In this document: positions 2,618-8,468 of the stretch, piece by piece | How positions within the stretch are numbered: position 1 is the stretch's first letter | Layout of the letters: every line of letters begins with the position of its first letter | Assembly: GCA_021772515.1 (NCBI GenBank) | Contig: JAJFLU010000022.1 | Location: 160,308 to 224,307 of the forward strand | Length of the DNA: 64,000 nucleotides | Source of the DNA: Opitutales bacterium | GTDB lineage: Bacteria; Verrucomicrobiota; Verrucomicrobiia; Opitutales; UBA2987 | Direction of reading: 5' to 3' | Position numbers and translations under genes: made by a program | The notes under the pieces: model-generated | What the model saw: the letters and a program-made list of their open reading frames with translations, nothing else | Database searches by the model: none | Told to the model about the DNA's origin: nothing

Positions 2618-3847
2618 TTATTCTTCAACAGTTTTTTCAATGATCCTGTTTGTCACGGAATTTCTCTGCGACTTCTTGAACCATCCCTTCGGTATATTGC
2701 CAAAGTAGCAAATTAAAAAAATAAACAAACCGGAAACCGGATGCCAAGCCTGTAGGCCAACCGCCTGTGTGGGTGTCGCCAGCCATTTCATGGCAGGAAG
2801 GCTGCCAATATTGGCAGGCGAAATAACAAGAAAAAGAGTAGCTAGAAATATATACCATCGGACGGACGCATACTGCCGAAATACGATGCACGAGACCATG
2901 GGAATAGCCAGGTATTGCTCCACCATCGCGCTCGAAAGCACACACAATCCAACCAGGTAAATTAAACAGGCTTCCAGTGGAGATTTGTCCTTTGTCAGCA
3001 ATCCCAAAAACAACAAGGAAATCAGCCAAACAAGTTTAAATCCCGAAAATGCCGGTAATACGGAAAATAATTTTTCAAAGAAATTCACCGGAAAAAACAA
3101 ATCTATCAGATGGGGATAAAATCCGTTGAGATGGAGAGAACTATAACCGGTGAGAATGAATTTTACCGACTTGTAGGCCTCGGGATTCCCAATAACAAAA
3201 GGAAGAAAGGACATTCCGAAGATTAAGGGCGGTACAATGAAGATGATTAGTCTCTCGCGTAATTTAAGGTTTTTGTTGAATAAGAACCAAACCGGAAGAA
3301 GGAAAAATATATGCTTGATAGTCAGTGACAATCCCAGGAGAGCAACTCCGGTCCAAATCTTGGCGTCACGGTTTTTATCGCCCGAACCGAGCAGACCGCA
3401 GGCGATGATACCCGGAAGTATGGCCAGGTTTTCGATTTGTGAATGATAGCCAGTCAGCAGAAGGGAAACCGGGTTTATCAAAAAGAGGCAGCCTGCGGCG
3501 AAGGAAAAATAACGCCATAAAACGAAGCCGATTGCAACATCCGCGAGAGATAGAAATAGGGCTAGCGCCAGATGAAAAGATTGTATCGAAATTTCATTTA
3601 GAAAAGACAGTTGAAGGAATCGGATTGCGCCCACCAAATAGGCCCAAACCGGACCGTAAACATGCCGCGCCGTTTCTGCGTAGAAATTCTTTCCCTCAAC
3701 CACCAGATCGGATACAATTTCAAAAGATTGTACATCATAATTGTAACCGAGGAGGGATATGCCGGCCTTGGCTGCGGTAGTGGCGACTGCCAGGAAAGAA
3801 AAGATCTGCCACTTGTTGGTGGAAAAAATTGAAGGATTGTGGGTCAT
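2618..3847 (-). CDS. Multi-spanning membrane glycosyltransferase-like protein (GT-C type)
   Basis: A 409-aa integral membrane protein with about nine to eleven hydrophobic segments along its whole length. An early loop (YAETARHVYGPVWAY) is followed by a later GYHSQIENLAILPG stretch, which recalls the polyprenyl-phosphate-sugar-dependent transferases of the GT-C fold (ALG6/8- or GT87-like). The family assignment is inference from architecture, and the donor and acceptor are unknown. It follows a methyltransferase and a GT2 enzyme on the same strand with a gap of about 50 bp, so the three probably form a cassette acting on a lipid-linked glycan or cell-surface glycoconjugate. In such systems the GT2 enzyme loads the sugar on a polyprenyl carrier and the GT-C enzyme transfers it outside. 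Confidence 0.6.
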   Translation of the reverse strand: MTHNPSIFSTNKWQIFSFLAVATTAAKAGISLLGYNYDVQSFEIVSDLVVEGKNFYAETARHVYGPVWAYLVGAIRFLQLSFLNEISIQSFHLALALFLSLADVAIGFVLWRYFSFAAGCLFLINPVSLLLTGYHSQIENLAILPGIIACGLLGSGDKNRDAKIWTGVALLGLSLTIKHIFFLLPVWFLFNKNLKLRERLIIFIVPPLIFGMSFLPFVIGNPEAYKSVKFILTGYSSLHLNGFYPHLIDLFFPVNFFEKLFSVLPAFSGFKLVWLISLLFLGLLTKDKSPLEACLIYLVGLCVLSSAMVEQYLAIPMVSCIVFRQYASVRWYIFLATLFLVISPANIGSLPAMKWLATPTQAVGLQAWHPVSGLFIFLICYFGNIPKGWFKKSQRNSVTNRIIEKTVEE

Positions 3848-3897
3848 GAAAGTTTCCAGTCGCTAAAATTATCAATTCCGATTTTCACGAAACCTCT

Positions 3898-4623
3898 TTA
3901 TACTTTTTGCCAAATGACAACAATCGTTTTCCCGATTCGGTGAAAAAAGAATCGATCAAACAACCTGGATAAGGGTACTAACCATCGGTCCCAAAAGAGA
4001 ATTTGCCTTAGAGTTGGCATTGACTGTTTTAATAAGAATCGATTGGCTAAAGAGGCAAACATGCCGAACATATCCAGATAGACCATTTTATCGCAGACTA
4101 CTCCCTCTGGTTCAAGGTCAACTAACAAATTTCGATTATACCGCCTGAAGTGTCCGATTGCACTGTCAAATTCCGAATAGAATACATTGTGGGCCGGTGA
4201 TAGAATTACTAACTTTCCACCTTGATTGAGGTGAAAAGCTGCTTTAGTCAATTCTTGGGCATCATGCTCGATATGCTCGAGCACATCGATATATAAAATA
4301 GTATCGAATATGTCGTTAGTTGCCAGTTCCTTAATGGTTCCCTCCTTTACCTGCACGCCCTCAAGGACTTTTTCAACGGAAATATTATTCCTTAATTGGT
4401 TTGCCAGTTTGGGATCAGGCTCCAAGGCCACCCATGAAGTGTGTTCTTCTTTTTTTAATACTCGTGTTGTGCCTCCCAATCCTGCTCCAACTTCAAGGAC
4501 TTTTCCTTGTATTGCATAAGAAATAACTGAGCGAATATAGGATTTCCAATTTAATGCATGTTTAAATATATCAAGTTCGTTTCCAGCATAAACATAACTA
4601 TCATCTGAGTTGGGTTCAACCAT
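3898..4623 (-). CDS. Class I SAM-dependent methyltransferase
   Basis: A 241-aa Rossmann-fold methyltransferase. Motif I is VLEVGAGLGGTTRVL, followed by an acidic strand end (ALEPDP) that binds the SAM ribose, and motif IV-like ILYIDVLEHIEHD. The pattern matches methyltransferase families common in polysaccharide and lipid clusters. The track ORF begins upstream at 4674, but the ATG at 4623 overlaps the preceding gene as ATGGTTGA and has a GGAGC sequence a few bases upstream, so translational coupling to the GT2 gene is likely. The substrate is unknown. A role in modifying a glycan or lipid intermediate is inferred from the neighbours. Confidence 0.75.
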   Translation of the reverse strand: MVEPNSDDSYVYAGNELDIFKHALNWKSYIRSVISYAIQGKVLEVGAGLGGTTRVLKKEEHTSWVALEPDPKLANQLRNNISVEKVLEGVQVKEGTIKELATNDIFDTILYIDVLEHIEHDAQELTKAAFHLNQGGKLVILSPAHNVFYSEFDSAIGHFRRYNRNLLVDLEPEGVVCDKMVYLDMFGMFASLANRFLLKQSMPTLRQILFWDRWLVPLSRLFDRFFFHRIGKTIVVIWQKV

Positions 4624-5663: not shown

Positions 5664-5694
5664 GAAAAAACCCCGAAGCAAAAGAGCTTCGAGG
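5664..5694 (-). terminator. Intrinsic terminator after the psp operon
   Basis: On the minus strand CCTCGAAGC and GCTTCGGGG form a 9-bp stem (one T.G pair) around a 6-nt loop, followed at once by TTTTTT. It lies 36 bp past the pspC stop and before the GT2 gene, so it separates the psp operon from the glycosyltransferase cassette. Confidence 0.85.
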
Positions 5695-5729
5695 TCTTTA
5701 AAAAATGATGGGAGGGATTGGTTGACTCC

Positions 5730-6128
5730 CTAATGTGTGGGTCGGTTCAGCCGTTGTTCCCAATCGAATTCCCTGGCGGTGACAATATCCTCGATTCTCC
5801 TTGCCCGGCGTTCCAGTTGCTCGAATTTTTTCTTTAACCTGGATACCGCCATAGTGCGTGAACCGGCGTAGGAGGTGTAAAACTCCAACTCTTCTTCCGT
5901 CGCCAGCGGCACCACGGGTTCCGGTTTCATGAGTATCGCAGCGATCAGGTAAATAAAGGCCAACGGGAAAAAACCGGAGAAGATAAAAATTGCGATACAT
6001 ATAAACCTTATCCAGAAGAGGGAGATGTCGGAATAATCGGCTATGCCTCGGCAAACTCCGAATATGGCTCCGTCGCGTGATCGATAAAGTCTTCTTCTTT
6101 GGTATCCCTGTGATTGTGAGTAGTTCAT
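5730..6128 (-). CDS. pspC: PspC domain membrane protein
   Basis: A 132-aa phage-shock-protein C homologue. The PspC signature LYRSRDGAIFGVCRGIADYSDIS is followed by WIRFICIAIFIFSGFFPLAFIYLIAAILM, the hydrophobic membrane part. A charged C-terminal tail (SRLKKKFEQLERRARRIEDIV) is likely helical. The ATG at 6128 is chosen over the longer track ORF because it overlaps the upstream stop as ATGA and the protein then starts directly before the PspC domain. In enterobacteria PspB and PspC sense envelope stress and release PspF from PspA; the same role is inferred here from the full set pspF/pspA/pspB-like/pspC. Confidence 0.92.
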   Translation of the reverse strand: MNYSQSQGYQRRRLYRSRDGAIFGVCRGIADYSDISLFWIRFICIAIFIFSGFFPLAFIYLIAAILMKPEPVVPLATEEELEFYTSYAGSRTMAVSRLKKKFEQLERRARRIEDIVTAREFDWEQRLNRPTH

Positions 6129-6364
6129 TTTTTGTGTCTTTTTATACGCTCCTGGTCGAGGAGTAAAGTTTCGAGTGATTCGATGCGGTTTTCCAGAGTG
6201 GAAAGGTTTTTGTGGAGTTGTTGAATCAGCATTGTCTCCTCTCCACCCATTATCCGGTCCTTTTTGGTCGGTTTTCCCTTGAGTATGGAAATTATCGCAA
6301 TGAATGTTCCACAAATTACTGGAAGACCTATCGCGACGATTGCTATTAACTCTCCTCCATTCAT
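6125..6364 (-). CDS. pspB: PspB-like small membrane protein
   Basis: A 79-aa protein with one N-terminal transmembrane segment (LIAIVAIGLPVICGTFIAIISI), then a basic stretch and a heptad-like helix (LIQQLHKNLSTLENRIESLETLLLDQERI). This is the PspB layout: a membrane anchor plus a cytoplasmic coiled coil that partners PspC. The stop overlaps the pspC start by ATGA, so translation is probably coupled. The name rests on architecture and position rather than on conserved residues, so it could equally be an unrelated small coiled-coil protein adopted by the operon. Confidence 0.72.
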   Translation of the reverse strand: MNGGELIAIVAIGLPVICGTFIAIISILKGKPTKKDRIMGGEETMLIQQLHKNLSTLENRIESLETLLLDQERIKRHKK

Positions 6365-6384: not shown

Positions 6385-6483
6385 TTAGATTTTGAGGTTA
6401 AGAATGGCGACTACCGATATGATGGTGGCACAGATGGCCGATATTCCGACCACGAGTAAAAAAGAGATAATTTGAGGGGTCAT
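6385..6483 (-). CDS. 32-aa hydrophobic microprotein inside the psp operon
   Basis: Too short for the ORF track. Reading the minus strand from the ATG at 6483 gives MTPQIISFLLVVGISA followed by more hydrophobic residues and ending AILNLKI, then TAA at 6385: a single transmembrane helix with almost no soluble part. An AGGAAAG Shine-Dalgarno lies about 7 nt upstream. It sits between pspA (65 bp upstream) and the pspB-like gene (20 bp downstream) on the same strand. The good ribosome site, the uniformly hydrophobic reading and the operon position support a real gene. A regulatory or membrane-sensing role with PspA/PspC is inference only. Confidence 0.68.
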   Translation of the reverse strand: MTPQIISFLLVVGISAICATIISVVAILNLKI

Positions 6484-6548
6484 CTTTCCTGCTGCTTATT
6501 GATAATATTATTAGTTTAGGCTGTGTTGATGAAAAGACGAATCTTATA

Positions 6549-7232
6549 TTACTCTTTTTCCACCGAAGATGTCTGCTCGGAAAGTTCGTTTTTCAGAGCG
6601 GATAGTTCACTTTCGATCTCCTCGTCGCCCACGAGCTTGGCAAATTCGTCATCGAGAACGGGTTTTCTGGCAAAGTTGACCAAATCGGCGTCAGCTTCCA
6701 TGCGTTCGATACGGTTTTCAAAATGTTCGAAGCGAATTACGGTGTCATTGCTTTCGGAATAGCGAATCTGACTGTGGGTCCTTTTTTTCTGCTGCGCTTT
6801 GCGGTGGCGCTGCACGAGGACATTATGCTTTTGTCGCGCAGTGGCCAGTTTTTCTTCCAGTTGGCGGATATCCTCCTGGTATTGGTCAACGATATCGGCG
6901 AATTGCTGACATTCGTTTTCCATGTGTTCGATTTCCTCGGTATAACGCCGTCTTTCCATGAGCGCTTCCCGGGCCAGATCTTCCCGGCCTTTGGAAACCG
7001 CAAGTTTGGCTTTGGCCGACCAATCCGATACCCGTAAACTGGCATCATCAAGGGCGCGGACGACTTTTTTTCTGCCTGCCATCGCTCCGGCGCAGGAGGC
7101 TTTGATTTCCACCAAAGTGTCCTCCATTTCCTGAATCATTAGCTTAATTAATTTTTCTGGATCCTCTGCTTTGTCCAACATCGCATTGATGTTGGAAGTG
7201 ACTATGTCTCTGAAACGTGTAAAAATGCCCAT
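6549..7232 (-). CDS. pspA: Phage shock protein A / IM30 family
   Basis: A 227-aa ESCRT-III-like peripheral membrane protein that maintains the inner membrane and, in characterised systems, inhibits PspF. It is nearly all predicted helix and coiled coil, starting MGIFTRFRDIVTSNINAMLDKAEDPEKLIKLMIQEMEDTL, the PspA/Vipp1 N-terminal signature with its amphipathic helix and the AEDP motif. The start at 7232 has a strong AAGGAG site upstream; the longer track ORF is not needed. It is the first gene of the operon behind a sigma-54 promoter and divergent from pspF. Confidence 0.95.
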   Translation of the reverse strand: MGIFTRFRDIVTSNINAMLDKAEDPEKLIKLMIQEMEDTLVEIKASCAGAMAGRKKVVRALDDASLRVSDWSAKAKLAVSKGREDLAREALMERRRYTEEIEHMENECQQFADIVDQYQEDIRQLEEKLATARQKHNVLVQRHRKAQQKKRTHSQIRYSESNDTVIRFEHFENRIERMEADADLVNFARKPVLDDEFAKLVGDEEIESELSALKNELSEQTSSVEKE

Positions 7233-7270: not shown

Positions 7271-7287
7271 ATGCAGTCCTCATGCCA
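7271..7287 (-). promoter_or_regulatory. Sigma-54 (RpoN) promoter of the psp operon
   Basis: The minus strand reads TGGCATGAGGACTGCAT, giving GG and GC dinucleotides exactly ten bases apart, the -24/-12 spacing of RpoN promoters. Transcription would start near 7259, leaving a short leader of about 27 nt to the pspA ATG. PspF, encoded divergently, is the expected activator. Confidence 0.85.
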
Positions 7288-7424: not shown

Positions 7425-8468
7425 ATGGCTTTTAAAACAAAACTATCAGCTACACCAGGGGAAGCCCTTGGGCAGTCGGATGCTTTTGTGGCCTTTCAGG
7501 AGCAATTATCGCTGGTTGCGACCGTCGATCGACCAGTGCTTTTGGTGGGGGAGCGTGGCAGTGGGAAGGAACTGGCGGCGGCCCGGTTACATTATTTGTC
7601 CAAACGCTGGGAAGCCCCCATCATTGCCTTGAACTGCGCAACATTGGCCTCGACCCTGTTGGAGTCAGAGCTATTCGGGCATGAGGCAGGCGCTTTTACC
7701 GGAGCCAGGGAGAGGCGAAAGGGCCGTTTTGAGGCTGCTGACGGAGGGACTTTGTTTTTGGACGAAATCGGTCTCATACCAATCGAGGTGCAGGAAAAAA
7801 TTCTCCGGGTCGTCGAATACCGGGCATTCGAGAGGGTGGGGAGTTCCTCCCCAATCAGCGTGGACGTGCGCATAATCGGGGCGACCAACGCGGATTTGCC
7901 ACAGTTGGCCAATGTGGGAAAATTCAAGCGTGATCTGCTGGACCGGCTATCCTTCGAGGTGCTTTTTCTGCCACCTTTGCGGGAGCGGCATGGAGATATC
8001 ATGCTCCTCGCGCGGCATTTTGCCGGTCGAATGACGTTGGAGCTCGGTTATGAAAATCTCCCTGAATTTAGTGAAAAGGCAATCCACCTGCTGGAGAGTT
8101 ATCCCTGGCCGGGAAACGTCAGAGAACTGAAAAACGTCGTCGAACGGGCACTTTATAAAAGTCAGGGGAAACCTATCGAATCGATTGAATTTGATCCATT
8201 CCGCGCGCCCTACACCACCACAACCGTGGATACCCCCGAGCAGAACCAGGGGCAGATTCCCGTTACCACAGTTTCAGTCCAGAAGCCAGAGGACGTGGAT
8301 AAATCCCTGCCAGAGATCGTCCGCGAAGTGGAGTTGAAAGCTTTGCAAAAAGCTCTCCTCACGGCACAATATCACCAGGGAAAAGCGGCAAATCTCCTTG
8401 GTCTAAGCTATCACCAGTTCCGCGCTCTTTACCGCAAACACAAGGATGTTCTTGCGGAAACCGGCTGA
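7425..8468 (+). CDS. pspF: PspF-type sigma-54 transcriptional activator
   Basis: A 347-aa activator consisting of an AAA+ domain with no N-terminal receiver, then a C-terminal Fis-type helix-turn-helix, the PspF layout. Visible motifs: Walker A GERGSGKE, the sigma-54-contacting GAFTGA loop, Walker B GTLFLDEIG, and VRIIGATN / WPGNVRELKNVVERA. The C-terminal HTH is KALLTAQYHQGKAANLLGLSYHQFRALY. A linker of about 50 residues separates the two parts. Lack of a sensory domain fits control by PspA binding. It diverges from pspA across a region of about 190 bp that holds the RpoN promoter and inverted repeats. Confidence 0.93.
   Translation: MAFKTKLSATPGEALGQSDAFVAFQEQLSLVATVDRPVLLVGERGSGKELAAARLHYLSKRWEAPIIALNCATLASTLLESELFGHEAGAFTGARERRKGRFEAADGGTLFLDEIGLIPIEVQEKILRVVEYRAFERVGSSSPISVDVRIIGATNADLPQLANVGKFKRDLLDRLSFEVLFLPPLRERHGDIMLLARHFAGRMTLELGYENLPEFSEKAIHLLESYPWPGNVRELKNVVERALYKSQGKPIESIEFDPFRAPYTTTTVDTPEQNQGQIPVTTVSVQKPEDVDKSLPEIVREVELKALQKALLTAQYHQGKAANLLGLSYHQFRALYRKHKDVLAETG

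Follow-up and report, generated by a model that had tools for sequence, protein, structure and literature searches.

A 32-residue single-helix protein in the psp operon of one Opitutales genus, probably a paralogue of the PspB transmembrane segment

In this work, we describe a psp locus of an Opitutales (Verrucomicrobiota) genome that is laid out as pspF<>pspA-x-pspB-pspC, where x is a microORF that is very probably a real, translated gene. Judging from the comparisons below, its likeliest origin is a tandem duplication of pspB with loss of the cytoplasmic part, which would make it a divergent paralogue of the PspB transmembrane (TM) segment. The original prediction, made on the window (the whole stretch of 64,000 nucleotides that was analyzed), had placed an ORF of 32 aa at 6385-6483 between pspA and a pspB-like gene; the ORF is confirmed exactly, and its neighbors match TIGR02977 and, below the cut-off, TIGR02976. 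The explanation that we favor as a whole is that of a real, helix-only PspB paralogue that joins PspB and PspC and tunes Psp signaling, and we give it about an even chance of being right. We infer the translation of the microprotein, its topology, its binding to PspB/PspC and its effect on signaling from the evidence laid out here, starting with the features of the locus:

5666..5699, minus strand: terminator-like hairpin with a T-tract after pspC, the probable operon end, read from the sequence
5730..6128, minus strand: pspC (132 aa), in ATGA overlap with the end of pspB; PF04024/TIGR02978, with TIGR02978 at E 5e-30
6125..6364, minus strand: pspB (79 aa; TM helix plus cytoplasmic coiled coil); TIGR02976 E 1e-6 and PF06667 E 9e-4, both below the curated cut-off
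6385..6483, minus strand: microprotein ORF (ATG..TAA, 32 aa), a probable TM-only PspB paralogue by conservation, PspB-profile match and AlphaFold
6484..6490, minus strand: AGGAAAG, putative ribosome-binding site of the microprotein, not conserved in the sister species
6549..7232, minus strand: pspA (227 aa from the conserved start); TIGR02977, 255.6 bits, over the cut-off
7272..7287, minus strand: sigma-54 (-24/-12) promoter-like site TGGCATGAGGACTGCA, 55 nt before the pspA ATG
7425..8468, plus strand: pspF, the divergently oriented sigma-54 activator; TIGR02974, over the cut-off

The 79-aa gene at 6125..6364 is, by its sequence, a divergent PspB, and the microORF is found 20 nt ahead of it and 65 nt past pspA. 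The sigma-54-like site before pspA is also present, at 51-58 nt, in both sister species and in 3 of the 8 other relatives checked. Because a site of this type precedes pspA and a hairpin follows pspC, the microORF very probably lies within one PspF-driven transcription unit together with pspA, pspB and pspC.

The product of the 32 codons is MTPQIISFLLVVGISAICATIISVVAILNLKI, and those of the two sister species (G001 and G002) are MTPQIIALLALTSISAICATLISIVAILQIRT and MTPQIIAYLAMAGLSAVCATIISVVAIINLRT. The microORF is found in 3/3 genomes of the genus, which are the whole conservation sample and are all or mostly MAGs, at the same place; start, stop and the length of 32 codons agree, and there are zero indels. 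In the three pairwise comparisons, the differences at codon positions 1/2/3 amount to 10/4/19, 7/5/11 and 12/1/17, with pN/pS of 0.38, 0.32 and 0.36, and column-shuffled alignments seldom show as few amino-acid changes (p 0.0004, 0.03 and 0.0006). The peptide is thus under purifying selection across the three species. Of the other five frames over the microORF, none is free of stops in both species compared. It is because the frame is kept in the genus with synonymous-biased change that we consider the microORF very probably translated. The original prediction had named lack of conservation and frame-breaking substitutions in relatives as what would speak against it, and the ORF is conserved and unbroken in both of them. 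That it might be a chance ORF and no gene at all is suggested by the fact that short ORFs are common and that the Shine-Dalgarno (SD) sequence is not conserved, but its retention throughout the genus with codon-like substitution largely refutes this, and we consider it very improbable.

The same data bear on a second possibility, namely that the microORF is the decaying relic of a pspB duplicate, without present function. It is truncated and limited to one genus, and the constraint on it is weaker than that on PspA (pN/pS 0.13) and PspB (0.17), as would be expected of a relic. On the other hand, its start, stop and length have been kept in three species at a pS of about 0.5-0.6, its pN/pS is well under 1, and simulations of neutral substitution between the window and each sister species leave the ORF intact in just 7% and 16% of runs, even with indels ignored. 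A relic is therefore quite unlikely, and a gene retained for its product is what we carry forward.

How translation of this gene would start is less uniform. The AGGAAAG described as a good site does directly abut the ATG in the window, with an AGG-to-ATG spacing of 4 nt that makes it a decent but close site; in the sister species it is not conserved and reads AGAAAAG in G002 and AAAAAAG in G001. Further upstream, the block 6533-6540 (minus strand; UCGUCUUU / TCGTCTTT) is invariant in the genus and complementary to the start region of the microORF (AAAGAUGA / AAAGATGA). This pairing would mask the start site, but we take it as only a hint, because no covariation in it is seen among the three genus species and because shuffled sequences fold as well as the RNA of these species (z +1.7, -0.6 and +0.2). 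An RNA element was also considered and rejected, Rfam giving nothing near threshold and the folding no excess over shuffles.

These observations are also those on which one could build a cis-acting translated leader, in which the act of translating the microORF adjusts how strongly pspB-pspC is expressed compared with pspA, and the peptide is secondary. Indeed, the microORF ends 15-30 nt before a pspB that has no clear SD in the genus, and the invariant block can pair over its start. Yet the amino acids are conserved beyond what a mere open frame would need, the microORF stop and the pspB start do not overlap, and the pspB genes of Opitutales that have no microORF mostly have no SD either; with the folding and covariation results just given, this makes a leader distinctly unlikely as the explanation, and the peptide itself remains our preferred object of selection.

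What this peptide is derived from can be approached through its helix, GISAICATIISVVAIL, which resembles GLPVICGTFIAIISIL of the adjoining pspB product. On a PspB profile built from 26 sequences of relatives, none of them from the genus, and with window reading frames and six-frame searches as background, the window microprotein scores 16.4 bits, and only PspB scores higher among the 1843 reading-frame segments of the window; the microproteins of the other two species reach just 10-11 bits. Composition-keeping shuffles attain the scores of the three species in 0, 1 and 1 of 3000 cases. By hhalign, the microprotein aligns with the TM helix of PspB over 24 columns at 54% identity (P 6.6e-6, probability 85%), and in six-frame searches of the family's four genomes with the three microproteins as queries, the next best match in G001 after the microprotein itself is the adjacent pspB (E 0.0165). 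A G-x(3)-[IV]-C-[AG]-T core is common to the microprotein and the PspBs of Opitutales. Homology to the N-terminal TM helix of PspB is thus strongly indicated, though not conclusively, because the matching stretch is short and hydrophobic. No match at E<=1 is obtained for the microprotein in Pfam and NCBIfam, the PspD and PspG family models included. It has the pspF/pspABC gene context by which PspB-family members are recognized, and since it has neither the cytoplasmic domain nor a match to the curated models (PF06667, TIGR02976), we do not class it as a PspB. Indeed, it ends about two residues past the helix and has no cytoplasmic helical domain with the R[IVLM]xxLE coiled-coil motif.

A real TM microprotein could also have acquired its helix de novo or from another source, in which case the likeness to PspB would be convergence and the protein would act elsewhere, for instance as an effector of the membrane-stress response in the manner of PspG or PspD. 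Convergence is easier in a hydrophobic helix, and the aligned part is just 24 residues of one; the missing family match fits this too, and, as PspD and PspG illustrate, a psp regulon can take up its own small proteins (PMC9239133). Against it stand the rarity of shuffles that match the score, PspB being the only higher-scoring segment in the window, the adjacent pspB as best other genome-wide match in G001, and the shared core. We regard convergence as unlikely, and since the profile, hhalign and six-frame matches all lead to PspB, the truncated tandem pspB duplicate is the economical reading.

AlphaFold models the microprotein as a single helix over residues 2-31 (pLDDT 89), and the one charged residue, a K/R, stands at the C-terminal end. 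Following the positive-inside rule, this lone residue implies that the protein should sit N-out/C-in, in the orientation of PspB. The single-helix membrane microprotein of the psp operon that had been predicted is therefore upheld by the conservation in three species, the one-helix model and the absence of a Pfam or NCBIfam match. In E. coli, membrane regions mediate both the self-association of PspB and its binding to PspC, with no need for the PspB leucine zipper (PMC3068692). PspB and PspC switch as a complex; PspA is then bound by PspC, and PspF is set free (PMC5596341). We propose that a tandem copy of pspB was reduced to its N-terminal TM helix, giving a membrane protein of 32 residues whose gene would be read from the PspF/sigma-54 promoter along with pspA, pspB and pspC. 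The cytoplasmic part of PspB, which carries other signaling contacts, is the part that the microprotein does not have, and its helix would compete for, or stabilize, the membrane contacts of PspB and PspC. By occupying the helix-helix sites of these two proteins, it could alter the number or the stability of active PspB-PspC complexes and would then act as a tuner, produced in step with the response; partial antagonism or stabilization of PspC would be its likeliest mode. Action through PspB-like membrane contacts is our leading hypothesis, and a tuning role in Psp signaling is plausible. The most specific version, a dedicated dominant-negative or stabilizing micro-subunit of the PspBC sensor that arose from a duplicated gene pared to its TM helix and acts on its parent by helix-helix contacts within the same operon, we put forward as tentative and somewhat doubtful.

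The distribution of the microORF is narrow. We read 69 distinct pspA-pspB junctions from Opitutales, other Verrucomicrobiota, Hydrogenedentota, Desulfobacterota, Binatota, Spirochaetes and others, and the gap is shorter than 100 nt in 60/69. Three of the nine longer gaps belong to the genus and hold the microORF, which was not found in the other six, nor in other readable psp loci; the fourth of the four family genomes examined has no such locus. Since none of the other junctions read has it, the microORF seems to be a genus-level addition, as far as the collections surveyed show. The search for an ORF at the same place in related psp operons, proposed with the original prediction, thus succeeded in the three genus genomes and at no other junction of the 69. 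The "dedicated psp microprotein" foreseen there does sit inside the psp operon, but it is probably a PspB TM paralogue and is confined to one genus. Two other candidates were rejected. At L081:3724-3855 (plus strand; uncultured bacterium CALLLL010000237.1, of an unrelated lineage), a 43-aa ORF lies between pspA and pspB and encodes MHLGIFEIVIIAMAILFFILPTGLLYHAMYKKSKQHKQKEERR, with one TM helix and a basic tail; its PspB likeness is not significant (just 6.1 bits on the profile), and identity with the microprotein is not demonstrable. A 26-aa ORF in L073 (about 3675-3930) and L103 is the front of a frameshifted pspB, split inside the TM helix and continued in another frame, either through MAG error or as a pseudogene.

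Among known systems, PspB (PF06667 / TIGR02976) is the closest, with the same operon, an adjacent gene, a predicted single-helix N-out/C-in layout and a similar helix sequence. It differs in having about 70-88 aa with a cytoplasmic coiled coil that bears an R[IV]xxLE motif, whereas the microprotein has 32 aa and none, and in the proline after the helix glycine, which the microprotein is missing. PspD and PspG of E. coli are likewise small Psp proteins under PspF control, but they have no sequence match to the microprotein and their genes are positioned elsewhere; such small partners can be narrow in range, PspD being restricted and PspG nearly restricted to Proteobacteria (PMC9239133). Among the papers searched, we found no description of a psp-operon microprotein or of a helix-only PspB duplicate. 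PspB duplication is known, and the helix-only form is apparently new. Although its scope is narrow, being one genus, the microprotein suggests a route from sensor subunit to regulatory microprotein within a well-studied stress operon, by which a duplicated gene loses the cytoplasmic domain and retains the helix, and it would be a natural probe of what the PspB membrane helix does alone.

Duplicate pspB genes in psp operons have been reported (PMC11237479), and they too amount to an extra PspB-related membrane gene in the operon; those of Hydrogenedentota and of the Opitutales family f4 keep the coiled coil, while the microprotein keeps only the helix. In three f4 loci (L008, L009, L011), a second PspB-like gene of 68-71 aa follows pspC, with a TM helix and a coiled coil ending in SLET, and five loci of Hydrogenedentota (L040, L044, L055, L061, L068) carry two or three full-length PspB-like genes each.
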